Shown here: positions 2,649 to 17,295 of the stretch, piece after piece | How positions within the stretch are numbered: position 1 is the stretch's first letter | Layout: each line of letters opens with the position of its first letter | Assembly: GCA_964058805.1 (NCBI GenBank) | Contig: CAXKVV010001711.1 | Location: 1 to 32,965 of the forward strand | Direction of reading: 5' to 3' | Length of the DNA stretch: 32,965 nucleotides | Source of the DNA: Schoenoplectus triqueter | Taxonomy: Eukaryota; Streptophyta; Magnoliopsida; Poales; Cyperaceae | The notes under the pieces: model-generated | The model's input: the letters and a program-made list of their open reading frames with translations, nothing else | Told to the model about the DNA's origin: nothing | The model's database searches: none | Position numbers and translations under genes: made by a program

Positions 2649-5600
2649 CTGAATCAAAGAAGAATTGGTCGAAATGAGATGAGGCTTATCGAAAAGAAAT
2701 AACCTAAAGGGTGATGAAGCATACCTGTGAGAATGGTCCTAACAGGAGCATGAGAAAACCGGCTGTCTAAACCCTGAAAGTCGACAGGCTCTGTGGCAAT
2801 GGCCGGGAAAGGGCTGCGATCACGCGAAACGGTGACATCTAATAGAGGCTGGCCATCTCGCGGACATGTACTCCGGACGACCACCGGAGGGGTATATGAC
2901 TGGTAAGAGCGGATGGCATCATGATACCACTGCTGATAACGCCTCGTGAAGGTGGAAATCCTAGAGGTGGATACCATCTGATAGCGAGTGCCCGTGCCTA
3001 GTCGGAAGAGGTGAGTGTAGCACCATCCGATACCCTCCAAATCAGCTGCCAGTGATATAGGGCGGAGAAGAGGCGCTGGAATATCCTGATCCAAGCCAAA
3101 CTGATGTGCGCATCGATGTGGTGAATAGGGCTCGATGAACATATAATCGCCCAATCTGAGAGGAAGAAAGCCCTGACGAATACTGATCAGGTACTCTAAA
3201 TCAATAGGCCTGGCTCGAATGCTAGAAGAGTCAGAAGAGGGAACTCTGCTGTCAATCACCATCCTGTCAGCAACCCTGGATGTCCCACGGGCCACTGATC
3301 TGTCTCGGGAGAAGCGCAGATGGTCTCGACTCCTGAAGAATCTATACCGGGCAGCCTCCGGAGTCAATGAAGCTGGCTGCACCCCAGCTAAGTCACTCAA
3401 TATGGGTAGGCGATCTCGTAGCATGACCGCCATGCCGGGATCATATGAGCCAGACCAGTGTAAATGGAGCCATCCGCTAATCAGATGCCACGGGATCAGC
3501 TCCTGGCACTGTGAAGGACTACGAGATGAAGTCAGACCGCGGAGGCACCTATAAATGTTGGCCAGTACAGGCACAGCCAAAGAAATCCTGTCGCCACGTG
3601 CGATCAGGCTCGCCATAATGAACACCGAAGGTCGAATGGTGTATGCGGGGGAGCTAGGCAATAAGAAATAGCAAATCCACCAAGAGATGAAAGCTGTCAA
3701 ATAAGTCTCCCGATCCACGTCATGAGAACACAGGGTATCCTGAGATGGGATAGGGCCGTCATGATGAATCTCGAGCCGACCTGTACCAAATGGATCTCTG
3801 GTAGAAGCCAAACCCGTAGGGCGAGTGTGAACCCGATCGGTGAAATAGGCGATCCAATGTCTGAACGGAACTCCGGGATGTCCCCTCCGTAGATGATGAT
3901 AAATCTCATAAATCCTATGCAAAGAAGGCGGGAATCGAGTGAAGTCTCCCGAGTCAGCGGGCGAGACTATGAACTCGTCATAGAAATGACCGAAAATCGG
4001 CAGCCCGGTCAACTGCTGTATCTCCAGGAGGGTCGGAGTCAACTCCCGATCGTCGATGAATAGAGTGTTGGTGGAATAGTTCCACCGCTCACAAAAGGCC
4101 CGTAGCCAGGGTGTGTCGATATGATAATGAAACATCGACAAGAAAACCGAGTCATATATCCCGGCTCGCCTAAGCAGAGTCCCCTCCCGCATGAGCACGT
4201 ACCGGGTCCACTCTAGCTGATATCCATGGCACTCTAAGGGAGTGATGAAGGGAGCAGTAGTCCATCTGTGAGCCTCCCCGTCGATAATCTCCTTGCCCAG
4301 GAGATGTGTCAAAGGAGCTGTAGAGGCAACGCCTAGAGGCTGAAGGGGCATGATGTCATGAGGCTGATCATCCCTGAAGAATAAACCGCCGCCTCGCGGG
4401 TAGACAGGAGTCGCTCGGATGGCTGAGATGAGAGGAGTCCAATCGCTAGGATCCTCGTAGAAAGAATGATAATGACTCAAGGGGCGGCGCGGAATGGCGT
4501 CGTGAGATAAAACTACAATACCCGAAGAAGAGAAGACGTCATGAGAAATGAAATGATGAATAATAAGGAATAATACACCAAGACAAGCCTTTCGAGCATT
4601 CAAGACTCGTCTTGGTGGGTGGCTCTTTGTTTACCCTTGAAAAATTTCAAGGATAAGTAGATGAATAAATGAAATAAATTGATGATAAATCATAAGAAAG
4701 GGGGAGAAGAAAGAGAGCAGTGGAAAGGTGGCCCACTGATCAGGAAAAGTCGCTGCATAACCCCGGAACAGATCCATTAGTCCCACAATGGAATGCTGAG
4801 CGCAAAGTGAAGAGTATAAATACCCCGCTATTCTTTATCCACTCAGCATGTGTGACACCCAAGAAGATCGAGGGAGAGAGGAGACCTCTTGGGTGTCACC
4901 ATGTGATTTTACATTTTCTGACAAGTGGGACCCACCTGGCAGCCCCTTGCAGATGAATCTAATAGCATAGCCTATCTGATGAGTCACCCATATGACCATT
5001 TCCACTGACAGGTGGACCCCACACCTCAGTGACCTATTGAAGAGGGTCAGAATTGAACCCTAGAAATCTGCCTTTGAAGCTAACCCTAGGAAGGAGCTGA
5101 AGCAGTATAATCCCTATACTACATGAAATGATGTCAATGCCAAGCTAGCATTTTGATGCAACTAATCATGAGAAATTCCAAATGTGATTTTGCTTTCAAG
5201 GCTGACCTGGTGCCAAAGCTGCGAGCAACCACCTAACCATGCTTTGATTTGTGTCAATTACTGATAAGTAGTCAGTTATTTGACCAAGTCACCCTCATGT
5301 TAAGGGATTGAAAGTCAATTTCACAAGACTGATCAGGTGCCAAAGCTGGGAGCAACCATCTGATCAAGTCTAGATTTGTATTAATTGCTGATAAGTAGTC
5401 AGCATTTGATCAAATCAAGCCCTAATGGATATCAATATAAGTCTAATTGGTATTTAGTTAGGGTGGTTTCTGCAAGAGAGAGGTAATTGGCAGAGACATT
5501 GAGCTACAATTGAGATTAGGGATTAATTCATGAAGACTAATAGGGTTTTATGAATAAAAGAATTTTTAATCCAGAGAAGGAGGGGTAAAAATGGAATTAA

Positions 5601-6668
5601 AAAATTACAGGGATGATCATCATGAATTTAGGGATTTTTGGTGAAATTTTCATGATTTTTGGATGAGTGGAGCTATTAAAATAAATTCAGGGAAGATAAA
5701 GGGAGAATAAATGGATTAATCAAAGGCTGAGATTCAATCAAGGGTTCATCTGGGTACAATCTGGGGGACAGAGACTTATCTGGGTGCAAACTGGGGATCC
5801 TAAACACACCTATACCGAATCAGAGAAGAGAGAGGGTGTGACACGTGTCAGCATTTCATTGGGCCACCTCATGCCACGTGTCAGCACCCCAATGGTCCAC
5901 CTCAGCCATGTGGGCCCCACACCCCTACAGACCTGACAAGTGGGCCCCACCTATGCCACATGGCAGTCAGCCATTGGTCCACATCAGCAGCCACCTCATC
6001 CAGCAGTAAGACAAATGGCAGCATGCTATAAGGCCACCTCAACAGCCCACTGCCATGTGGCCTTCCCTCATTGGTCCACCTCACCACTATGAATCCCACT
6101 ATGCTATAAGGCGACTGACAAGTGGGCCCCACTGGTGCCATGTCACCATACAGCGTGTATAAAGAGTGACAGATGGCTCTCTATGGTTGGTACAGGGCAA
6201 CACACAAGGTGCCACATGGCACTACATCACAAAGCCACATCATACACAGATTATTAACACTAAGGGTTTGTTTAATAAGCAATCAACCAATCAGGCAGAG
6301 CCACCTCAGCCTATTAACCCTAATCATCATGTTAATCAGCTGCTAAATGAGATGCCTAACTATTAAATCTGACATATGGGACCCAGTAGTCAGGTTAATA
6401 TGAGTAGGTGCATGAGATGAAAACTGTGAGCTGAGTCTATTCAATCTACCTCTTCAATCCAGCGCAATTCAATTTAAAACGAGAGGTAAAAGGAAGATAA
6501 ACCTGGTCTAAATGCGTTGAATCTCTGCTCTTCTTCTCTTCTGCGTTTTGGCTCACGCATGCCAGGTGCATCCACGCGCGATAAGGAACTCTCTCCCTCC
6601 TTCTTCTTCTCGCCATTGCCCGAGTCCAATGCAGCTCGTGTTTTCTTCTTGCCCTGACGCCTTACCAT
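951..6668 (-). CDS. Seven-exon plant mobile domain (PMD) protein gene, antisense in element A
   Basis: Reading on the minus strand, exons are 6668-6503, 4512-2725, 2648-2475, 2397-2290, 2216-1800, 1723-1634 and 1561-951. Every intron has GT...AG ends and every junction is phase 1, usually G|GT. The summed CDS is 3354 nt, 1117 residues plus TAG, with no internal stop. The protein has a lysine/arginine-rich N-terminus (nuclear-signal-like), a PMD of roughly residues 160-470, a Pro/Ser/acidic linker and a coiled-coil C-terminus. PMD proteins include Arabidopsis MAIN/MAIL1, which act in silencing, and many transposon-encoded relatives. Without exon 1 the PMD exon has no Met until residue 85 of its open frame, which supports the upstream exon. 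The splice model is inferred by eye; an RNA-seq read across 6503/4512 would confirm it. Confidence 0.7.
2725..4512 (-). CDS. PMD gene exon 2, encoding the plant mobile domain
   Basis: This 1788-nt exon encodes about 596 residues. The PMD hallmark is RAFCERWNYSTNTLFI followed by DDRELTPTLLEIQQLTGLP, matching the family pattern of a Trp-Asn pair, an acidic/threonine 'ELTPTL' segment and a 'LTGLPI.G' motif. Further family-like segments include WLHLHWSGSYDPG. The acceptor is ttgtag before 4512 and the donor is ACAG|GTATGC at 2724. Family knowledge: PMDs occur in cellular genes and in both gypsy and Mutator-like transposons. No polymerase or DDE motif is fused to it here. Confidence 0.8.
4815..4822 (+). 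promoter_or_regulatory. TATAAATA box near the LTR A start
   Basis: A consensus TATAAATA is followed by cccc about 190 bases into the LTR, in the sense direction of element A. Equivalent boxes, TATAAATA and TATAAAAG, occur in sense in LTR B (around 21890 and 21650, minus strand). It is a candidate LTR promoter, competing with the box at 7393. Confidence 0.45.
4852..4899 (+). other. Perfect 13-bp-stem hairpin just after the TATAAATA box
   Basis: The arms are GTGACACCCAAGA (4852-4864) and TCTTGGGTGTCAC (4887-4899), with a purine-rich loop of 22 bases. LTR B has two analogous hairpins at the matching place, each near its own TATA box. If transcription starts about 30 bases after the TATA box, the hairpin would be at the RNA 5' end. 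Confidence 0.75.
5080..5660. repeat. U3 block shared by all three LTR copies
   Basis: This block recurs inverted at about 18160-18840 (C) and 20890-21440 (B). It contains two internal tandem subunits with the words ctgactacttatcag, gcaattaatacaaat and agctttggcacc, so each LTR copy also carries an internal duplication. It is noncoding. Confidence 0.8.
5836..6140. promoter_or_regulatory. G-box / CCAAT word array in LTR A
   Basis: The words TGACACGTGTCA (5839-5850, perfect palindrome), CCACGTGTCAGC, GCCACATGGCAG, ATTGGTCCACCTCA and GACAAGTGGGCCCCAC recur in shuffled order about every 30-40 bases. CACGTG is the plant G-box core, ACGTGTC is ABRE-like and ATTGG is a CCAAT box. A related array lies at 20395-20710 in LTR B. 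The array sits between the conserved U3 block and exon 1, so it is a plausible enhancer or intron element. Confidence 0.5.
6503..6668 (-). CDS. PMD gene exon 1, inside the 3' LTR
   Basis: It encodes 55 residues plus one base, starting MVRRQGKKKT and ending ..NAFRP, followed by the donor G|GTTTATC. It is rich in Lys, Arg and Glu, as expected of a nuclear-targeting or nucleic-acid-binding tail. A homologous exon with the same phase and donor position (DAPGxREP motif) exists in the inverted LTR B copy at 19997-20138, which argues that it is a real exon. Intron 1 (6502-4513, about 2 kb) crosses the LTR/internal boundary at 4628. Confidence 0.65.
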
Positions 6669-7142
6669 GGTTGAAGGTGATCTAATAGAATAACGATGAT
6701 CAGAGGTGGGGTAAGAGGTGTTATTAGATCAATTATGAGAAATAGATGAATAAAAGGTGAAGATGAGTTATTACCCGAGATTGAACTAAAGAAAGGAATC
6801 CAATTGATACTCCGGAGGTCAAATTGAGTCACAAAGCAGCGTCTTTAAGGCAAGGCGACGCCGGCAAAGGTGAATTGATGTGGCAATTGAGTGAGAAAAG
6901 GGTTGAAAACCGAAGATCGCCGAAGACAGTGACGAGGTGGCAGGCCTAGTAGGCGATCCAGAAGTGAAATTGCACGATTGAGAAGATCACTTGGGCCAAG
7001 GCGATGCTAGTAAACATGAATTGGTGAAGTAATCGAGTGCACAAAATGCTAATTGTCCAAGAATTGAAACCGGAACGAAAATGAGATTGGAGAAATTAGA
7101 GCTGACAAATGAATGAAACAGTGTTCAAGCTAGCTGTGAAGA

Positions 7143-7153
7143 GTTTAAATAAG
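7143..7153 (-). promoter_or_regulatory. TATA-like box for the antisense PMD gene
   Basis: CTTATTTAAAC on the minus strand lies about 480 bases upstream of the PMD start codon at 6668. LTR B has CTATATAAGC at the matching place, about 500 bases upstream of its orphan exon. The equal spacing in two diverged copies supports a promoter. Confidence 0.45.
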
Positions 7154-7390
7154 TGTTGGCAACTCAGGGCCCACTCACCAGTCGAAACACATGAGCAATT
7201 GAGAGTATAGAGTCAAAGAATCGCGGCACAGTCAAAGGATAACAGAAAACGGTTATTGAAGTTCCACAACAAGCACAACTTGATCTCAACCATCCAAGCG
7301 AGTGTAATGAAGGGTGGAGATGCATCCAGGCTGGCAATCCAAGTAAAAGACAATCGACCAATCACAATTGAGATTGATTGAACTAATCAG

Positions 7391-7400
7391 CCTATATAAA
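7391..7400 (+). promoter_or_regulatory. CCTATATAAA box, sense promoter of LTR A
   Basis: The box is conserved in sense in all three LTRs: LTR B (19198-19207, minus) and LTR C (17296-17305, minus). It lies about 240 bases from the antisense TATA-like box and points the other way, so this part of the LTR reads as a divergent promoter. A splice-donor-like GAG|GTAATTG follows at 7551. Confidence 0.5.
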
Positions 7401-7740
7401 CTGAAAATTGGCGACAGCAGCAGGAACAGATCCATACATCCATTAGCAGAGCAATTGAGAATACATATACACTTGCATATACACTAGCAGTCATAGAGAA
7501 GAAGAGAGATTACAAAGAAACCGATTGAGTTAGATTACTACTCAGATTGAGAGGTAATTGTTCATGCATTCAATTGGCAATTCTTTTTAATTTCTGTAAA
7601 TGAATTTAGAGCTTTAATATAGTTAGTTAAACAGTCGATTGATTTCTTTTCTGTTCTTGCTACTATTCTTTGAGAATTTGTTTCATTCTTTCATATTTTC
7701 TTTTCTGCATTTTTGTTCTTTCTTTGAATAATCCTAATCA

Positions 7741-8125
7741 ATGGCGATTGACTGAGTCCAGTGAGCCACTGGCCCAATTACAAAGTAATTGGTGAGCCTT
7801 TAGGCCTGGACCAGTCACAATTATCAAAATTTTACAATTTGAATAGCATAGCATATATTCCTTTATGATTTTTCATTTTCAATCGATTTCTTTGTTTATA
7901 TCTGTCTAACTAATGAAAGATAATGACTTGTTATCCTTTGAGTATCCTAGTTGTATGATTCTGATTGAACAGATGAACCAATTCTTGCAAATTTGAAGAA
8001 ATGCACTGATTCTAGCACAAATCAATATACTGATGAAATTACAGAATTGAATTGGCTTCAATTGATCTCTATCTCAGCGAGCCACTGGCCCTAGCAATGT
8101 CTGGGTGAGCCTTTAGGCCTGAGAG
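7741..8125. repeat. Duplicated inverted-repeat module in the LTR A leader
   Basis: Two copies (7759-7808 and 8075-8122) share gagccactggccc and gtgagcctttaggcctg. The first contains the hairpin CCAATTAC-aaa-GTAATTGG. LTR C and LTR B have their own paired hairpins of different sequence at the corresponding place. Confidence 0.6.
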
Positions 8126-8170
8126 TCATCAATTGAATATAAAAACATCTTGAATTGAGAAAGGATCGCG

Positions 8171-8192
8171 GTCGGTACCAGTCGGTACCACA
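8171..8192. other. Twin GGTACCA site
   Basis: Two GGTACC words lie 10 bases apart. Aligned sites occur at 16503-16515 in LTR C (GGTATCA/GGTACCA on the minus strand) and at about 12094-12118 in LTR B. I first read the LTR C copy as a tRNA primer site, but it is inside the LTR. Confidence 0.45.
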
Positions 8193-8859
8193 TACCCGCC
8201 ATGCACAGTTGTCCCAACCCGGTTAATAGCATCTAGGAAGCTTCATTCTCATCCCAGATCATATGTACATGTCAAGGCGATGCTCAATAGTTGTATAATT
8301 GTCAAGAATCTCAATTGAATTCGGTGAATTTGATGAAGAAATGATCTTGATACCGGTTCTTACTAGCACAGTAACTGATAGTGTCGTATAAGTATCAACC
8401 ACCGTATAGATCTTTGATCGGATAATATAGAATGATTCTATGTACTAAGACGATATCAATGCGCTGGTCTGATCGGAGGAAGGAAGTTCCGGCGGCCGGG
8501 AACGCCACCTAGCACGGATCTTGACACATCGGGGAGTCAGAGACTGAAGGGATCCTTTCTGCACGATTCTTGAAGCGTTCACCGATCTTGAAGAATATCT
8601 AACGAACGAGATCTAGCAGGAGTTCGGGAATTTAAACAAGGAAAGATCTGGGCCTTATATATATTAAGCACGTATCTTAATCAAATCTAATGGCCCAGAT
8701 ATGTTTAAACATTTAAATAATAACTCCGTGCTAATCTGGGCCGTAGATCTATTAAACACTCATCTCAAACTAATCCGGCGGCCCAAGTGAAGAAGAGAGT
8801 TAGAAATATGCGCACCAATCTTGGAGTAGATCCGGCGGCCCAGATTAAGCCCATTAATT

Positions 8860-10135
8860 AAATAATAACAGAATAATAATAAATAAATGATTTGAAAATG
8901 CTATTGAACTCCAAATTGACTCAAATTTGTTTCTAAAATTTTCTTATTTTTCATACTATTTTTCTATATGAGAATATTCCAGTTTTAGAAATATAATCAT
9001 AATAAAACATTTTAAAAGCAAAATGTATTACATATATTGATATAGTTGACTTAGCTTTGACTTGTCATTTTAAATACTGTAAAAATTCCAAAAATACAAA
9101 TAAAAATCATAAATAATAACTAGATATATTTTAGTAATTTTTCAAGTGATTTTCCATGAAATAATAATAGTGATAGTAATATACTATAATAAATGATGAG
9201 ATTAGCTATATTCTTTGATAAATAAAAGAATATATGAATAATAATAGATATTATATTGATATTTTCTTGATATTTTCCTGTAAAAAGAATAATAAGAATA
9301 AATAGTACAAAATGTACAAAATATACTACTATGCATTTTCTTTCATAATAAAGGATGATAATATAGTTTTATAATATGAATTGTATTTCTTTTGCTATTT
9401 CTATACAAATATACAAAAAATATACTTTTGATGAACAAAATGTAAATAAAATAATAGTTGTAATAAAAACATAATGAATTTTATCTCTTATGACTATTTT
9501 CAAATAATAATAAAAATCTTATAGATAATGAATAGAAATAATAAATAGATATGATGAATAGTATAATAAATAGAATAGAATATTAGAATAGAATATTAGT
9601 AATGATTTCTCTTAGTTATTATAGATATAAAGAAAATATAATAAAGAATATAATAATAAAAAAATAATAATAGTAAAATAGTATAGCTAACCACCTTTTT
9701 AATTTTGTAAATAATTCTTACATCATGAATAGTATTACAATATAATAGAATATAATAACAAAATTCTATTACTTTAGCTATTATAAGCATTTTGGAAATA
9801 TAAATGAAAAACATAACCATTTCATTTTCTATTATTTTTGTAAGTGATTTTCTACAAAATAAATAGAGTTTAGAAATAATAAAAATAAATTCTACTATTT
9901 TTGGCCATTATAAAAATCCCAAAAATATTAATAGCTACCCATTTTCCTATTATTTTTCTACATAGATAAATAGAGTTTAAGAAATAAAAAATAATAATAA
10001 TAAAAAAATAATAATAGTAATAAGAATATAATAATAATAATAATAATAGTAATAATAATAATAATAATAAATGCATCTTCATAATAATGGAAGATATTAT
10101 ATAATAGACTCTGTGCATTTTAGAAATGAATAAAT
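8860..10135. other. AT-rich block with (AAT)n, LTR A
   Basis: This is a strongly AT-rich noncoding stretch ending in an AAT microsatellite at about 10028-10072. It pairs as an inverted repeat with 14760-15960 of LTR C, with many small indels. No gene is present; the open frames are low-complexity. Confidence 0.75.
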
Positions 10136-10136
10136 A

Positions 10137-10860
10137 TGCTCACACAAGGGGTGTAGAGTCACATGAGAATATTTGCACAACATTTAGAAAGACATGTCGA
10201 GACAAGAACATCTTGACATTTGATGAATAATAATAATATACGTTGAAACAAGAACATTTTGACGTAGGATGATTAAGGACTTAATAGCAACATGAGAAGA
10301 TATGTCAAGACAAGAACATCTTGACATTTGATGAATAATAATAAGATACGTTGAGACAAGAACAACTTGACGTGGGATGATTAAGGCTTCGATAGCAATA
10401 TGAAGAAGATGCGTTGAGACAAGAACATCTTGACGTGAGAAGATTAAGGCTTCGATAGCGACCTGAGAAGATACATCGAGACAGGAACATCTTGATGTTT
10501 GATGAAGAATAACCAGAGCTACGATACTAACATGAAGATATACGTCGACTCTGAAGAAGAAGAACATTACGATGTCCTAGAGAGGTGACATCTTAATGAC
10601 TCGCTGCCATGAGCAAGTAACTCATGATTGAATACGCTCACACAAGGGGTGTAGGGCTACATAGTAATGTTGCACAAGTAATGCAACACATAGAATGATT
10701 AGTCGAGACAAGAACATCTTGACGCTCGTTGAAGATTGATCAAAGCTACGACATCAGCATGGAGAGATATGTCGACTTTGAAGATGAAGAACATTACGAT
10801 GTCCGAGCGAAGTGACATCTTAATGACTCGGCGTCATGAACAAGTAATTCATGACCGTTT
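10137..10860 (+). repeat. Minihairpin repeat array, LTR A
   Basis: The word gagacaagaacatcttgacg recurs about every 55-65 bases. Its core CAAGA-ACA-TCTTG is a 5-bp hairpin with a 3-base loop. A larger unit of about 495 bases (starting ctcacacaaggggtgtag at 10139 and 10635) is repeated twice. Each large unit ends with GATGTC...GACATC and CATGAR-CAAGTAA-YTCATG hairpins. The mirrored array in LTR C is 13930-14710. Confidence 0.75.
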
Positions 10861-10870
10861 GAGCTGGCAA

Positions 10871-11466
10871 GACTGAACTCGTCCGTCGACGAGTTTGTCT
10901 TCCGACTCATTCCCCGAGAATGTGAGATTGAATCGGTCTGTTGGTAGATTCATCCACGAAACAGTGAATGTGAACCGTTCTGTAGGTAGGTTCCTTCACT
11001 AACACATGCCTCAATGTTGAATTGGCCCAGCGCTTCATGTTTGACATTGTGTGCAATTGTGTTTCCTAGGTTTATGAATCGGCTTAGTGCTACGAATTCA
11101 TGATCTAGAAGATCGGTGAGAAGAAACACGTGGGCCATATCCACCCTTCTCCTGATTCACCAACCTCAAGATCAACCGGCTCAGCGCTTCGAGTTGTATC
11201 TTGTGTGATTGGTTGTTGACTAGTTAAGATTGAACCGGTCTGTTTGTAGGTTTATCTTCTAGATCAACGGAGGTCGAGTCGGTCTGTATGTAGACTCACC
11301 TCAAGCCCCCTATGAAGAGATTAACCTGGTCTGTTGGTAAGGTTACATCTCGAGGAGGCATGGACTGAACCGGTCTGTTTGTAGGTTCGTCCACCACAGG
11401 ATAAAACCGATCTGTTTGTAGGTTTTATCTTCCCTAGATTGAACCGGTCTGTTGGTAGGTTCATCT
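10871..11466 (+). ncRNA. Array of nine covarying hairpins in U5 of LTR A
   Basis: Hairpins lie at 10871-10899, 10926-10953, 10970-10999, 11226-11258, 11272-11300, 11318-11350, 11362-11392, 11399-11433 and 11436-11466. Apart from the first, all have a 12-nt loop close to GGTCTGTTTGTA. Stems differ but pair: GAATC/GATTC, GAACC/GGTTC, GAGTC/GACTC, TAACC/GGTTA, GATAAAACC/GGTTTTATC. Several have a second outer helix (AGAT/ATCT, GGAC/GTCC). The array lies in U5, so it would be in the leader of the genomic RNA. Whether it acts as RNA or DNA is inference. Confidence 0.6.
11012..11202 (+). ncRNA. Three hairpins with a GGCTCAGCGCTTCG-type loop
   Basis: These lie within the larger array. Stems are CAATGT/ACATTG (11012-11049), ATGAAT/ATTCAT (11074-11101) and AAGAT.AAC/GTT..ATCTT (11168-11202). 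Their loops are versions of one word: tggcccagcgcttca, cggcttagtgctacg, cggctcagcgcttcga. They are mirrored in LTR C near 13590-13780. Confidence 0.55.
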
Positions 11467-11499
11467 TCCGTAGATCCATTTTATAAACTTAGACGACCA

Positions 11500-11781
11500 C
11501 TTGCCCATCTCTTAACTATACTATTTGCTTCTCTCTTTCAAAGATCCAGAGGTGCCTCGAGGTTCGTAGCCCAGGGTAATTAACGGTGGGGGCTTGCGCC
11601 CACCGGAATCTACAAGAACTCACAATCACTAAAAACCCCCTGAATGTGCATCCCAATATCTCTAAACGGCAGAATCGGCCGACACCCTGCAGATGCACGC
11701 TCGGGAGGGATCTCCGTGTCCTTCTTCCGCAGAACCCATCGCCCGGCGGCGGTGCGGCGGCGCGCGAAAAAGGGTCGCACA
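11500..11781 (+). other. GC-rich U5 end of LTR A
   Basis: Nearly identical (inverted) to 13003-13265. The last 74 bases, ending GGCGCGCGAAAAAGGGTCGCACA (positions 11759-11781), appear four times in the window: once here and three times in insertion C. Translations of this stretch (a Ser-Phe-Phe-Arg-Arg-Thr-His-Arg-Pro type peptide) lack any conserved start and are not called as genes. Confidence 0.7.
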
Positions 11782-12711
11782 GTTTCCGATCAAATATTGC
11801 ATTTAATCTGGGCCATTAGATCTGTGTTGAGATTGATTCTTAATGGATGAAAGGTCTTGATGCATTTCAGTTATTAGTATTAACTAATAAACTGTTCCAG
11901 TCGTCGGATTTCTTTGAGATTCCTCCAGATGCGCTAAGATCTATGCTAGTGCACTAAGAGTCGTGCCAACTCATTTCTTCAACTCCTCTGTTAGTTGCAC
12001 ATCAAGATTCGTGTTGTTGGTGAGAAGAATTTGATTGTGACCTCTGATTAAAAATCCATACAGCATATAGTAGAGAAGAGTTGTACTAGTTTGGTACTAT
12101 GATGTAATTTGGTACCGAAACGAATTGAATTGATTTCTCGATCAAATTGAACACTAATTCTTACAATTCCTGCACTGTACTTTGCCGCCTTGGTGTAATT
12201 GAGATGCTTATTAACTGTCTTCAAGTAATTGACTCAAATTGCAATGAAAATTCTCGAGCGATTGGTACATACTGGTTCAAGTTGCGAAATCGGTTGCAAA
12301 CTTGATCACCCGAGTTCGTACATGATTTACACATACTCATTACTCCTCTCTACATCTTTAATTGGACTATTCTATAGCTTTGACATGAGTTAGAGATAAA
12401 TTTCATGTCAGCACACAGAAGGAGATATATGAGTAAATATACGAGCTGAATTATCACTAATTCAACTATGTATTTCACTCAATTGTCATTGAATCGGATA
12501 ATCAAGCTTGCAAAGGAACCAGGAGGGTTACATAAACCCTTCAACTGATTGTCATTACAACTATTATCAATTTTTCTCTAAGTAACACCCGGGAGGGTTA
12601 CAAAAACCCTTCAACCGAGTCTCAATTTATCTCACACGCTCTGACATTGTGATTAGCATCAAAAAAACAGTAAGAAGTTGAAGAGATAAGATAAAAGATG
12701 AAGAAATCAAG
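11782..12711 (-). mobile_element. Detached inner segment of LTR B
   Basis: Removing insertion C joins 18886 to 12711, and the joined minus-strand sequence (tttgctattt-cttga-tttcttcatc) aligns with LTR A near 7655-7715. The twin GGTACC site (about 12094-12118) and a ctgggccattagat word (11805-11818) match LTR A at about 8171 and 8690. Hence it is LTR B continuing, cut again at 11782 by element A. A pair of small hairpins, AGGGTT...AACCCT, lies at 12525-12612. No gene is present. Confidence 0.65.
12707..12711. repeat. Target site duplication, left copy (tcaag)
   Basis: The same five bases occur at 18886-18890. Between them the sequence runs TGTGCGACC...GGGTAAACA (TG...CA), the expected ends of an LTR insertion. 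Confidence 0.8.
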
Positions 12712-13077
12712 TGTGCGACCCTTTTTCGCGCGCCGCCGCACCGCCGCCGGGCGATGGGTTCTGCGGAAGAAGGACACGGAGATCCCCCCTAGATATGCAT
12801 CCAAAATCTTATGTTCCATGAGTGTATTTTGATAGTCCCACCGGGCGTGCCAGATCCTGTGCGACCCTTTTTCGCGCGCCGCCGCACCGCCGCCGGGCGA
12901 TGGGTTCGCGGAAGAAGGACACGGAGATCCCCCCTAGATATGCATCCAAAATCTTATGTTCCCTGAGTTTATTTTGATAGTCCCACCGGGCGTGCCAGAT
13001 CCTGTGCGACCCTTTTTCGCGCGCCGCCGCACCGCCGCCGGGCGATGGGTTCGCGGAAGAAGGACACGGAGATCCCT
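12712..13077 (-). repeat. 2.5 tandem copies of a 145/146-bp LTR-PBS junction unit
   Basis: Unit starts are at 12713, 12859 and 13004. Each unit holds the last 74 bases of U5, then GGATC, then the PBS-like TGGCACGCCCGGTGGGAC, then about 50 bases of leader ending ggatgcatatctag. The copies differ by a few bases. The joint between leader and U5 lies within shared ATGCA...GGGATCTCC, a microhomology. Confidence 0.85.
12985..13002 (-). other. Putative primer binding site (TGGCACGCCCGGTGGGAC)
   Basis: It begins with TGG, as expected for pairing with a tRNA CCA end, five bases after the CA end of the LTR. The complement reads as a plausible tRNA 3' end (GTCCCACCGGGCGTGCCA), but I cannot name the tRNA. 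A second copy is at 12840-12857. Confidence 0.6.
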
Positions 13078-13320
13078 CCCGAGCGTGCATCTGCTGGGTG
13101 TCGGCCGATTCTGCCGTTTAAAGATATTTGGATGCACATTCAGGGGGTTTTTTAGTGATTGTGAGTTCTTGTAGATTCCAGTGGGCGCAAGCCCCCACCG
13201 TTAATTACCCTGGGCTACTAACCTCGAGGCACCTCTGGATCTTTGAAAGAGAGAAGCAAATAGTATAGTTAAAAGATGGTCAAGTGGTCATCTAGGTTTA
13301 TAAAAAAAAAGGTCTACGGA

Positions 13321-13925
13321 AGATGAACCTACAAACAGATCGGTTCAATCTATGGAAGACAAACCTACAAACAGATCGGTTTTGTCCTATGGAAGACGAA
13401 CCTACAAACAGATCGGTTCAGTCTATGCCACCTCGAGATGTAACCTTACCTACAGACCAGGTTAATCTCTTCAGAGGGGCTCGAGGTGAGTCTACATACA
13501 GAACGACTCGACCTCCGTTGATCTAGAAGATAAACCTACAAACAGACCGGTTCAATCTTAACTAGTCAACAACCAATCACACAAAATACAACTCGAAGCG
13601 CTGAGCCGGTTGATCTTGAGGTTGGTGAATCAGGAGAAGGGTGGATATGGCCCACGTGTTTCTTCTCACCGATCTTCTAGATCATGAATTCGAAGCACTA
13701 AGCCGATTCATAAACCTAGGAAACACAATTGCACACAATGTCAAACCTGAAGCGCTGAGCCAGTTCAACATTGAGGCATGTGTTAGTGAAGGAACCTACC
13801 TACAGAACGGTTCACATTCACTGTTTTGTGGATGAATCTACCTACAGAACGATTCAATCTCACAGTCCCGGGAAATGAGCCAGGAGACGAACTTATCGAC
13901 GGATGAGTTCAGTCTTGCTAGCTCA
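13321..13925 (-). ncRNA. Covarying hairpin array in U5 of LTR C
   Basis: This is the inverted counterpart of the LTR A array, with the same hairpins in the same order. Three stems differ from LTR A by paired changes: GATA..TATC becomes GACA..TGTC (13358-13386), GGAC..GTCC becomes AGAC..GTCT (13394-13424), and one G-C becomes A-T in the CGTCCGTCGACG hairpin near 13890. That last stem also carries one unpaired C/A change. Confidence 0.6.
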
Positions 13926-13929
13926 AATG

Positions 13930-14710
13930 GTCATGAATTACTTGTTCATGACACCGAGTTATTAAGATGTCACTTCGCTCGGACATCGTAATGTTCTTCT
14001 TCTTCAAAGTCGACATATCTCTCCATGCTGATGTCGTAGCTTTAGTCATTCTTCAGCGATCGTCAAGATGTTCTTGTCTCGACTAATCATTCTACGTGTT
14101 GCATTACTTGTGCAAAATTACTATGTTGCCCTACACCCCTTGTGTGAGCGTATTCAATCATGAGTTACTTGCTCATGGCAGCGAGTCATTAAGATGTCAC
14201 CTATCTAGGACATCGTAATGTTCTTCTTCTTCAGAGTCGACATACATCTCCATGTTAATATCGCAGCTCTGGTTATTCTTCATCAAGTGTCAAGATGTTC
14301 TTGTCTCGACATATCTCTTCATGCTGCTATCGAAGCCTTAATCATTCTACGTCAAGATGTTCTTATCTCAACGTATCTTATTATTCTTCATCAAGTGTCG
14401 AGATGTTCTTGTCTCGACGTATCTTCTCATGTTGCTATCAAAGCCTTAATCTTCTCACGTCAAGATGTTCCTGTCTCGACGTATCTTATTATTCTTCATC
14501 AAGTGTCAAGATGTTCTTGTCTCGACACATCTTCTCGTATTGCTATTAAAGCCTTAATCATTTCACGTCAAGATGTTCTTGTCTCGACGTATCTTCTTCA
14601 TATTGTTATTGCAACCTTATTTATCCCCCGTCAAGGTGTTCTCGTCTTGACTCATCATTCTAAATGTTATATCATGTGTGCAAATAGTCTTATGTGGCTC
14701 TGCACTCCTT
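13930..14710 (-). repeat. Minihairpin repeat array, LTR C
   Basis: Inverted copy of the array at 10137-10860, with the caagatgttcttgtctcgac word about every 60 bases and one or two more units than LTR A. It shows the same CATGAR/YTCATG hairpins around 13935 and 14165. Confidence 0.75.
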
Positions 14711-14759
14711 ATGTGAGCATATTTATTCATCTTCTAAAATGCACAAAATCTATTATATA

Positions 14760-15960
14760 ATATCTTCCATTATCATTCCTATTATGAAGATACATTTATT
14801 TATTATTATTATTATTATTATTAAAAATAATAGGAAAAGGGGTTAGCTAGTAACTAGAATCTTATTTATATTTTTGGGATTTTTATAATAGCTAAAATAG
14901 TAGAATTTTATTTTTATTATTTCTAAACTCTATTTATTTTGTAGAAAATCACTTACAAAAATAATAGGAAATAAAATGGCTATGATCTTTTATTTGTATA
15001 TTTTTTTTTAAAATGTTTATAATAACCAAAGTAATAGAATCTTTTATTATATTCTATTATTCATTATGTAGGAATTATCTACAAATCAAAAGATAGCTAA
15101 CTATATTATTTATTATTATCATTCCTTTATTATTATTTTTTTTTATTTTTAAAATCCATAATAGCTAAAAAGAAATCATTATTAATATTCTATTTCATTT
15201 ATTATACTATTTACTATATATTTTTCTATTATTTCTACTTATTATCCATAGGAAAATATAAGATTTTTTTATTATTACCATCATTAGTTGAAAAATAGCC
15301 ATAAGAAATGAAATTCATTATATTTTTATTACAATTATTATTTTTATTGCATTTTATTCATCAAAAGTATTTTTATTGTATATTTGTATAGAAATAACAA
15401 AAGAAATACAATTCATATTATAAAACTATATTATCATTCTTTATTATAAAAGGAAATGTATTTACTATTTATTATTATGGTAGTATATATTTTCGTATAT
15501 TTTGTTCTATTTATTTTTATTATTCTTTTTACAGAAAAAATATCAATATAATATCCATTATTATTTATTTCTATATATTTTTTTATTTATCAAAGAATAT
15601 AGCTAATCTCATTATTTATTATAGTATATTACTATCATCATTATTATTTCATGGAAAATCACTTGAAAAATCACTAAAATATATCTTATTATTATTTATG
15701 ATTTTTATTTGTATTTTTGGAATTTTTATAGTATTTTAAATGACAAGTCAAAGCTAGGTCAACTATATCAATATATGTAATGTCTTTTGCTTTTAAATTG
15801 TTTTACCATGGTTATATTTTTAAAACTGGAATATTATCATATAGAAAAATAGTATGAAAAATAAGAAAATTTTAGAAATAAATTTGAGTCAATTTGGAGT
15901 TCAGTAGCATTTTCAAATGATTTATTTACTATTTATTTTTAATATTCTGTTATTATTCAA
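14760..15960. other. AT-rich block, LTR C
   Basis: Inverted counterpart of 8860-10135, with an ATT microsatellite at about 14800-14822. Nothing coding is seen. Confidence 0.75.
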
Positions 15961-17295
15961 TTACTGGGCTCAAATGGATCGGGCCGGCTCTTATTTCTTT
16001 TCATTTTTCTTCTTATCTTCACTGGTTGGGCTCAATACGGAAACTGGGCTGACCTTGCTTTACTATTACTCTTTTATTCTCGTTGGGCCCAAACTGTTTA
16101 TTCTCTTTTTTTATTTCGCTGGGCCAGCTGTTATTACTCCTTTTCTTACTTGGGCCGAAAATCTTGGGTTAATCCTCAATCACCGGATGGCATCAAGATT
16201 CGTTGTCTGATAGGTGAAGGGTTCAGATTATTCATCACCTTAAGTCCAACTTGCGATCTTTATCACTCGTTGATCTGGCTTAAAGTTTCGCATAGCCCCT
16301 TCAAGATTCGTGTTATGGATTTCAACCTCGCGGATCTTGTCAGTTATTGGGTTAACGGGTCCTCCTCCTTCCTTCGCCGGAGCACCACCGCGCCGGCTCC
16401 TAGAGCATCGCCTGACTGAGACAAAACCCTTGGTGCCCTTCGTTTCGCCTGAATCGCCCTATGCTGCTGGGAATGCTTGTACCGATCGGTGTCTGACTTG
16501 GTACCAATGATACCAGTTGTGCGTATTTTCCTCTAATTCGGTGTAACTAACTTACCAGAAACTATAATCCATATTATATTCATTACTTTCAATGTATGCT
16601 TCGGGCTTTCTTATGGAAATTATCATTATGTATTCCATGCTTCCAAATCGGTTAAGCTTTAGCATTATTATTTAATCAAGAATTAACGAATCTTTGATCA
16701 ATTCAGATATATCTATCCAATACAGAGGTTTAGACAGATCATTCAACTAACTAAATTCATTAATTCGATTAGTGTTTACTAAGAGAATTTTAATTGAAGG
16801 AATGTTGTGAAAGAATTTAACTTGAATCTTTTTCCCCTGTAAATCCAGAATTATAGTTTTCCTCATTCGAAAAATAAATAAATAAAAGGTAAGAATCAAA
16901 AAGGCAAAGACAGAACAAGAAACTCACAACTGGTTTTATTATTTTGAAACCGAATTGATTGCATAGTTACTTACACCCTTTGATGCTCAAGACAATAACT
17001 CCAATTGCCTCCCTGTTGTAAAAATCTCGATTGAAATCACCGCTTTGTGAGCTGAGTTCTCAAGTATTCAACTGAGATCGATCAGCTTAGGCTATCACTC
17101 TCGGTTTTGATAAGAATTGCTGCGGTATAAGTTGAGTTCTCAGGTTTATAACCGAGATCGATCAACCAATGGGTATGATTCTCTTCCAGGATACAGTAGG
17201 TGTAGATTTCTCAGCTCTTATGCACCAATAGAAGAGATGTGGAGTCAGGTTATCAATTCTGGGGGGGGGGGGGGGTTTCAATTGCTGCTCCAATG
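15961..17295. other. Leader part of LTR C
   Basis: Noncoding. It aligns loosely with 7400-8860 of LTR A in inverted order (gggcc words, the twin GGTACC site at about 16503, cgaatcttgaag). A run of 15 G lies at 17261-17275. Open frames here have no support. Confidence 0.5.
17051..17166. other. Pair of covarying hairpins in LTR C
   Basis: 17051-17086 and 17131-17166 share gagttctca and gagatcgatca. Stems are GCTGA/TCAGC in one and GTTGA/TCAAC in the other. The inner stem AGT/ACT in the first becomes GGTT/AACC in the second. TCTC/GAGA is shared. Confidence 0.6.

Follow-up and report, generated by a model that had tools for sequence, protein, structure and literature searches.

Introduction

Retroviral psi and DIS leaders consist of structured RNA around the primer-binding site, with palindromic dimer contacts. 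Retroviral and Ty1 leaders contain a single hairpin or a handful of unlike ones, and the constitutive transport elements of simple retroviruses present a repeated loop to an export receptor, in two copies with internal loops. For plants, the available part of an account of BARE, a barley Ty1/copia element, mentions dimerisation and packaging signals as well as separate pools of translated and packaged RNA (PMC3735527). The open-access literature covered, as far as its accessible text goes, held no description of how plant Ty3/gypsy elements choose their own RNA for packaging, and its titles and abstract beginnings described no hairpin array in an LTR leader. Two papers appear possibly relevant by topic from these same parts, one on LTR structure (PMC3601003) and one on hairpins in maize elements (PMC10760457).

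Here we analyse a window of 32,965 nt, contig CAXKVV010001711.1 of Schoenoplectus triqueter (Cyperaceae), in which a first-pass annotation had proposed a hairpin array inside an LTR. Judging from the way its sequence varies, the array very probably functions at the RNA level, as a structure under selection in RNA of the sense strand.

Results and Discussion

The array sits near the end of a long LTR

The array lies near the 3' end of an LTR of ~7 kb and ends ~315 nt before the LTR does; its assignment to U5 in the first-pass annotation is provisional. An inverted LTR in the same window carries it as well.

4628 to 11781, plus strand: LTR A, ~7 kb, TG...CA ends, a 3' LTR with the internal region upstream (BLAST with the 6991-bp C460 LTR)
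13320 to 13916, minus strand: the same array in inverted LTR C (eight covariance-model hits, 35.2-51.5 bits)
12980 to 13002, minus strand: primer-site motif GGATCTGGCACGCCCGGTGGGAC flanking the end of LTR C (sequence)

LTR A was considered a 3' LTR because its upstream flank matches the stretch preceding the 3' LTR of another copy, C460. The 3' end of LTR C is at 12712. As a separate observation, the LTR end and primer-site motif are tandemly repeated there in several copies with a period of ~145 bp (window 12712-13076, minus strand), and further copies with this period occur at C22:535544-535860 (genome G000), C463:27374-27688 and C1004:5012-5328. Region 10871-11466 has at least 40 scored matches among 668 first-look candidates in the genome.

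The young C460 copy has two LTRs of 6991 bp each (99.99% identical, TG...CA ends), with ACCAG as the 5-bp flanking repeat, and measures ~28.6 kb from LTR to LTR. After its 5' LTR comes the primer-site motif GGATC-TGGCACGCCCGGTGGGAC, whose pattern (25 places, up to 3 mismatches) has 280 matches genome-wide; a further stretch that shares the motif, L048, lacks the class IV array (see below). Pfam assigns its ORFs to gag, protease, RT, RNase H, a second RNase H and integrase, in the order gag-protease-RT-RNase H-integrase, with the protease matches scoring below the curated cut-off. The second RNase H is of archaeal type (RVT_3, PF13456, E 6.7e-19) and lies between the RT_RNaseH and integrase matches, an arrangement that we take to be a mark of the Tat clade. 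Judged by domain order and clade features, the array-bearing element is probably a Tat-type Ty3/gypsy element. Between pol and the 3' LTR, one antisense ORF encodes a Plant mobile domain (PMD, PF10536; window 2654-4603, minus strand; L029:148-2124) and a second has no Pfam family (two ORFs were scanned; a third measures 225 aa). In copy L030, the ~570 residues from the first ATG after a splice-acceptor-like stretch to the gag domain match no Pfam family. Scanning three pieces of L030 for a CCHC zinc knuckle gave none, in a search that motifs spanning piece borders would escape.

A putative leader composed of repeated hairpins

A putative leader of ~1.6 kb, presumably transcribed, would run from the LTR promoter to the primer-binding site, beginning ~30 nt downstream of a TATA-box candidate. 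Its features, all on the plus strand of the window, are as follows.

10097 to 10105, plus strand: TATA-box candidate TTATATAAT (motif; putative promoter function)
10138 to 10159, plus strand: leader hairpin with AAGGG loop, second copy at 10636-10657 (fold)
10194-10219, 10239-10266 and 10302-10327, plus strand: class I hairpins, loop CAAGAACA, units 1-3 (folds)
10347-10374, 10411-10436 and 10694-10730, plus strand: class I hairpins, loop CAAGAACA, units 4-6 (folds)
10608-10626, 10660-10697 and 10827-10863, plus strand: class II hairpins, loop CAAGTAA, three units (folds)
10865 to 10904, plus strand: leading hairpin H0, AACTCGTC/GACGAGTT (fold)
10924 to 10956, plus strand: class IV unit 1, GAATC/GATTC (covariance model, 43.9 bits; among the units on which the model was built)
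10966 to 10998, plus strand: class IV unit 2, GAACC/GGTTC (37.8 bits)
11007 to 11055, plus strand: class III hairpin a, loop with AGCGCT (fold, variants)
11061 to 11113, plus strand: class III hairpin b, loop with AGTGCT (fold, variants)
11111 to 11157, plus strand: long hairpin between class III b and c (fold)
11160 to 11212, plus strand: class III hairpin c, loop with AGCGCT (fold, variants)
11226 to 11258, plus strand: class IV unit 3, GAACC/GGTTT (46.8 bits)
11270 to 11302, plus strand: class IV unit 4, GAGTC/GACTC (41.6 bits)
11317 to 11349, plus strand: class IV unit 5, AACCT/AGGTT (35.3 bits)
11361 to 11393, plus strand: class IV unit 6, GAACC/GGTTC, outer stem GGAC/GTCC (43.8 bits)
11398 to 11430, plus strand: class IV unit 7, GATAAAACC/GGTTTTATC (33.5 bits)
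11435 to 11467, plus strand: class IV unit 8, GAACC/GGTTC (48.0 bits)

Among 30 distinct AT-rich rows preceding the first leader hairpin, TATTATAT occurs in 17 and TATTAT in 26, and the end of TATTATAT lies 29-36 nt from the hairpin anchor; unlike an earlier listing, these rows had not been preselected for TATA. Ahead of the primer site, the C460 leader contains 38 ATGs. A stretch resembling a branch site and splice acceptor (CTAAT...T-run...GCAG) immediately precedes the first gag ATG in each of the nine distinct 5' ends continuing into gag (L002, L006, L013, L016, L018, L021, L023, L025 and L027). The leader upstream of the array is itself tandemly repeated, and the last class IV units were also scored as a tandem repeat (11359-11475).

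Arms of class I are paired in 105/144 cells (24 distinct arm pairs, including chance matches outside the leader), against 91.0 ± 4.4 when re-dealt. For class II the figures are 126/210 cells (35 distinct arm pairs, including many chance matches outside the leader) and 84.0 ± 6.2, with stems that differ as widely as CATGAG/CTCATG and GTTGCA/TGCAAC. The commonest class III loop variants listed keep AGCGCT or AGTGCT and several diverged ones do not; being self-complementary (AGCGCT, or AGTGCT with G.U), these loops (window 11007-11212) are possible dimer contacts. In H0, pair 10881/10890 is GC in 19, GT in 13 and AT in 9 of 41 copies, and the H0 position of LTR C gives an extra weak model hit (16.5 bits, E 0.3).

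In all eight class IV hairpins (10924-11467) a 5-bp inner stem bears the loop G-N-UCUGU-N(N)-GUA. Six share one plan, in which a 1-nt 5' bulge separates the outer from the inner stem and the loop has 12 nt; the exceptions are unit 5, with a 3' bulge, and unit 7, with no bulge. Of 36 copies, 33 have GC and 3 have AT at the outer pair 11362/11392 of unit 6. A covariance model (R1), built on 66 of 102 distinct units, gives 14 hits with E < 1e-4 in the older array of L015; the array is still present at 77-83% identity, and the number of class IV units differs between subfamilies, from 8 to 14. In many units the loop end and 3' arm together read GUA(A/G)GU, and a splice-donor/U1 role was set aside after a plus-strand scan of three leader stretches, using approximate donor frequencies, returned 0 sites above 4.0.

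The first-pass annotation had described eight successive hairpins headed by a ninth. All of the stems it quoted are present in the sequence, and there are indeed eight hairpins, but they fall into two groups, two at 10924-10998 and six at 11226-11467, separated by a long hairpin and three hairpins that have a different repeated loop (CGGCTYAGYGCTTCGA type). The ninth hairpin, H0, is real but differs in its loop, CGTC. Three paired substitutions had been reported for LTR C, and three were seen (10881/10890 G-C to A-T; 11362/11392 G-C to A-T; 11402/11427 T-A to C-G), but pair 10880/10891 is broken there (C-G to C.A). Unit 7 of LTR C also lacks one T from its 3' arm; the first-pass annotation mentions neither change.

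Class IV stems vary in pairs around a conserved loop core

A search by loop alone, covering the window and the collected loci, yielded 102 distinct units, every one with at least four of five inner pairs (5/5 in 96, 4/5 in 6). Relaxing the loop pattern gave 28 distinct arm pairs, five of which lie outside arrays, with 119/140 cells paired, against 89.8 ± 4.2 when re-dealt. Across the 102 units, which are related by descent, 86.4% of 1020 cells are paired (73.0% when shuffled), 191 cells are changed on both sides (61.9 when shuffled), and the covariation score is 0.522, compared with 0.266 ± 0.012 for shuffled units and 0.077-0.157 for slid structures. Two of the five covariation measures fail to beat shuffling in these units, as there is no excess of pairs changed on both sides (9 vs 8.9, reached by 464/500 shuffles) or of further pair types (26 vs 24.1, reached by 94/500). 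A 66-unit subset scored 0.494 (shuffled 0.251, slid at most 0.166); it was chosen by hand, and the excluded units held 2 of the 4 A.C cells. When class IV stems of the L015 subfamily were compared with eight other sequences, 48 cells had changed on both sides with pairing kept and 7 with pairing lost, alongside 35 changes from Watson-Crick to G.U, 17 from Watson-Crick to A.C and 18 transversions; these counts are of cells, not independent events, and decayed copies are among the sequences.

Change rates were taken from close copies. Removing L015_4 from a 42-row leader alignment left 41 rows. Five diverged copies were omitted from the rate count, leaving 36; in the tree counts below, their pairs past 11300 were masked. 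Inner stems changed 3 times over 80 sites (0.037 per site), loops 24 times over 96 sites and outer stems 21 times over 102, while the remaining array sites past 10905, class III hairpins counted in, changed 122 times over 316 (0.386 per site). The tandemly repeated upstream part had 504 changes over 506 sites, with a less sure alignment. The loop changes fall at positions 1 (2), 2 (14), 8-9 (7) and 10 (1), with none at positions 3-7 (UCUGU), 11 or 12 (the final UA). The constant loop of the earlier description is therefore constant at UCUGU and the final UA, and variable at positions 1, 2, 8-9 and 10. Its pattern of a conserved loop on free but paired stems was upheld. A kissing loop had been offered as one reading of that pattern; the class IV loop, which has GATC, GGTC and GTTC forms among the 102 units, is not self-complementary in general.

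Fold energy by itself is a weak signal. A stretch of 641 nt has a z of -4.8 (20 shuffles), and 150-nt windows over the class IV hairpins reach just -0.75 to -1.35. The mean for 150-nt windows from 10178 on is -1.76 on the plus and -1.96 on the minus strand (10 windows), compared with -0.27 and -0.35 upstream of 10178 (37 windows). The structured zone starts near the TATA-like motif, and the putative leader is as foldable on the minus strand as on the plus strand. Rfam gave no match at gathering score in 8500-16500; its single match there, to xrRNA class 3, scored 19.9 bits (31 needed; E 1.8) at window 13873-13920, on the plus strand and antisense to LTR C. One class IV pattern had 0 matches in viral contigs. 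A scan for loop 6-mers on at least three mutually compensated stems (leader plus 12, leader minus 10, L040 7, L015 8, L048 12) was set aside as evidence, because AT-rich sequence defeats it: its controls gave 0, 2, 1, 18 (AT-rich LTR), 0, 1, 2, 0 and 1, and 100 mononucleotide shuffles of the leader gave at most 5, with 43 above zero.

Possible roles of the array

Because the loop letters are fixed and the stem letters free but paired, we infer a partner that reads the loop. Every class IV hairpin would offer it the same loop, G-N-UCUGU-N(N)-GUA, with the stem letters mattering little as long as they pair, and many units in a row would give one RNA many equal docking sites, so that repetition would amount to avidity. 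The best overall explanation, which we advance tentatively and at somewhat less than even confidence, is a multivalent platform made of RNA, whose most likely use would be the Gag-linked selection of genomic RNA that has not been spliced. The putative partner would be the element's own Gag, or the ~570 residues preceding the gag domain; its job would be to mark unspliced genomic RNA for packaging, and the palindromic class III loops might provide dimer contacts. The position of the array, upstream of gag in the putative leader, would fit a packaging signal. Taken together, the upstream ATGs and the acceptor-like stretch suggest that spliced and unspliced RNA may differ by the leader. Spliced RNA would then perhaps serve as the template for Gag, leaving the array as a mark of the unspliced genomic RNA, which for the 28.6-kb element would be ~22 kb. 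For the array itself, a Gag or packaging role is plausible, though we would not call it probable.

A related, equally provisional reading is of a modular array in which each of four hairpin classes is read by its repeated loop, giving a tunable multivalent platform for packaging or export. On this reading, unit number might grow and shrink between subfamilies while stems drift in pairs, a suggestion that we likewise make with reserve. If true, the modular array would be a new kind of retroelement RNA signal. The ~100 natural stem variants with a repeated loop would constitute a ready-made binding experiment, distinguishing letters that are read from those that are merely paired, and the array would exemplify RNA-level selection inside an LTR and serve as a marker for related leaders in other plants.

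It is also conceivable, if somewhat unlikely, that a host factor binds the array for nuclear export or retention of unspliced genomic RNA, with repeated loops in the style of a constitutive transport element. A repeated loop suits host-factor docking as well as Gag docking, and the acceptor-like stretch common to the nine 5' ends means that the full-length RNA may retain an intron and require a signal for export; against this, the rough donor matrix found no site above 4.0 in the leader, and we know of no plant factor that reads the class IV loop. Control of gag translation, by internal entry, by shunting or by hiding upstream ATGs in structure, is unlikely. The 38 ATGs of C460 would call for something of the kind, but removal of the leader by splicing would solve the same problem, and ribosome-landing structures seldom need many copies of one loop. 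Export and translation control thus stand as rivals to packaging, and the results separate none of the three.

RNA pairing or DNA palindromes

Packaging, export and translation control all act through RNA. A DNA-level origin, in which conversion or cruciform repair keeps the arms complementary, or the arms are a pair of sites for DNA-binding proteins, with no RNA role, is distinctly unlikely. Such a process should yield G.T and A.C equally, whereas RNA tolerates G.U. Both were counted on a tree made from the unpaired columns. The window served as its root, because structures derived from the window are biased towards pairs preserved on the path leading to it. In the named leader hairpins, G.U exceeded A.C by 29 to 9 on internal branches (p 0.0017; 32:7 in an alternative count without window rooting) and by 33 to 19 on terminal branches (p 0.07), while the internal-branch changes in unpaired columns were not strand-biased in this way (C>T 63, G>A 71; A>G 52, T>C 41). 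Inner-stem cells of the 102 units likewise include 21 G.U, 4 A.C and 2 C.C, which a DNA process would not predict. Counting each of the 23 distinct inner arm pairs once (17 are fully paired) gives 10 G.U, 4 A.C and 2 C.C, and this ratio of just 10:4 speaks for the DNA-level account, as does the tandem repeat at 11359-11475, in which both arms could convert together.

Other folds were counted in the same way. Generic sense folds of the leader gave G.U:A.C of 44:21 and 48:41, and its generic antisense folds lean to G.U too (56:37, p 0.06); AT-rich LTR folds, as befits a control, showed no G.U excess in either sense (13:22, 22:24) or antisense (11:28, 14:20). In the first 1.2 kb of the LTR (window 4628-5860), sense folds gave 22:9 on internal branches (p 0.03) and antisense folds 10:11; some windows there fold better than shuffles, and the genomic RNA would carry this region at its 3' end. 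As the antisense folds of the leader and the sense folds of this region also lean, the named hairpins are not alone in showing the asymmetry. Class IV stems alone showed no G.U excess among close copies, with too few events (internal 1:0, terminal 4:6). Genome-wide, the fourth inner pair (12-nt loops only) is C-G 1204 times, T-A 334, T.G 10 and C.A 0; the 10:0 ratio (p 0.002) counts against a DNA process, with the proviso that the C stands in a CCG context where methylation may favour C>T. The third inner pair, which is context-balanced, gave G.T 5 and A.C 1 genome-wide, too few to be significant.

The first-pass annotation had cautioned that DNA conversion could homogenise stem arms. The excess of 29:9 points instead to RNA pairing, although some controls lean likewise; in sum, the G.U preference of the leader stems shows signs of selection on sense-strand RNA rather than DNA conversion. 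That the array is a neutral by-product, one chance hairpin amplified in tandem and drifting, is highly improbable: the Retand lineage of the Tat clade commonly has tandem repeats, according to the accessible part of PMC11963269, and the upstream leader is itself such a repeat, but inner stems change about ten times more slowly than other array sites in the 36 close copies, and double changes mostly keep pairing (48 vs 7 cells).

Relation to described leaders and packaging signals

Within its own clade, the element differs from the Retand elements surveyed in PMC11963269, whose LTRs, in the part of that paper available, measure 315-1194 bp and whose antisense TRP28 ORF occurs in 97% of clusters. 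The 6991-bp C460 LTR is outside that range, and the antisense ORF here carries a Plant mobile domain. BARE resembles it in having the leader of a plant LTR element, but belongs to another superfamily, and the accessible portion of PMC3735527 contains no hairpin array.

The 5' leader of Ty1 (PAL1/PAL2) is alike in being structured RNA near the primer-binding site with palindromes for dimer contact, as far as the available text of PMC9503155 describes it. What sets the present locus apart from retroviral and Ty1 leaders is that one loop occurs 8 to 14 times on different stems. Constitutive transport elements share the offer of a repeated loop, but here the loops, as predicted from sequence, are apical and form an array. 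In the degenerate packaging sites of satellite tobacco necrosis virus and hepatitis B virus core, as far as the beginnings of abstracts describe them, many stem-loops likewise have a short loop motif in common; the biological relevance of dispersed packaging sites is itself under test, to go by the title of PMC6475782. Those viral sites are dispersed along the genome, whereas the hairpins described here, predicted from the DNA, form a tandem array on a uniform 33-nt plan.
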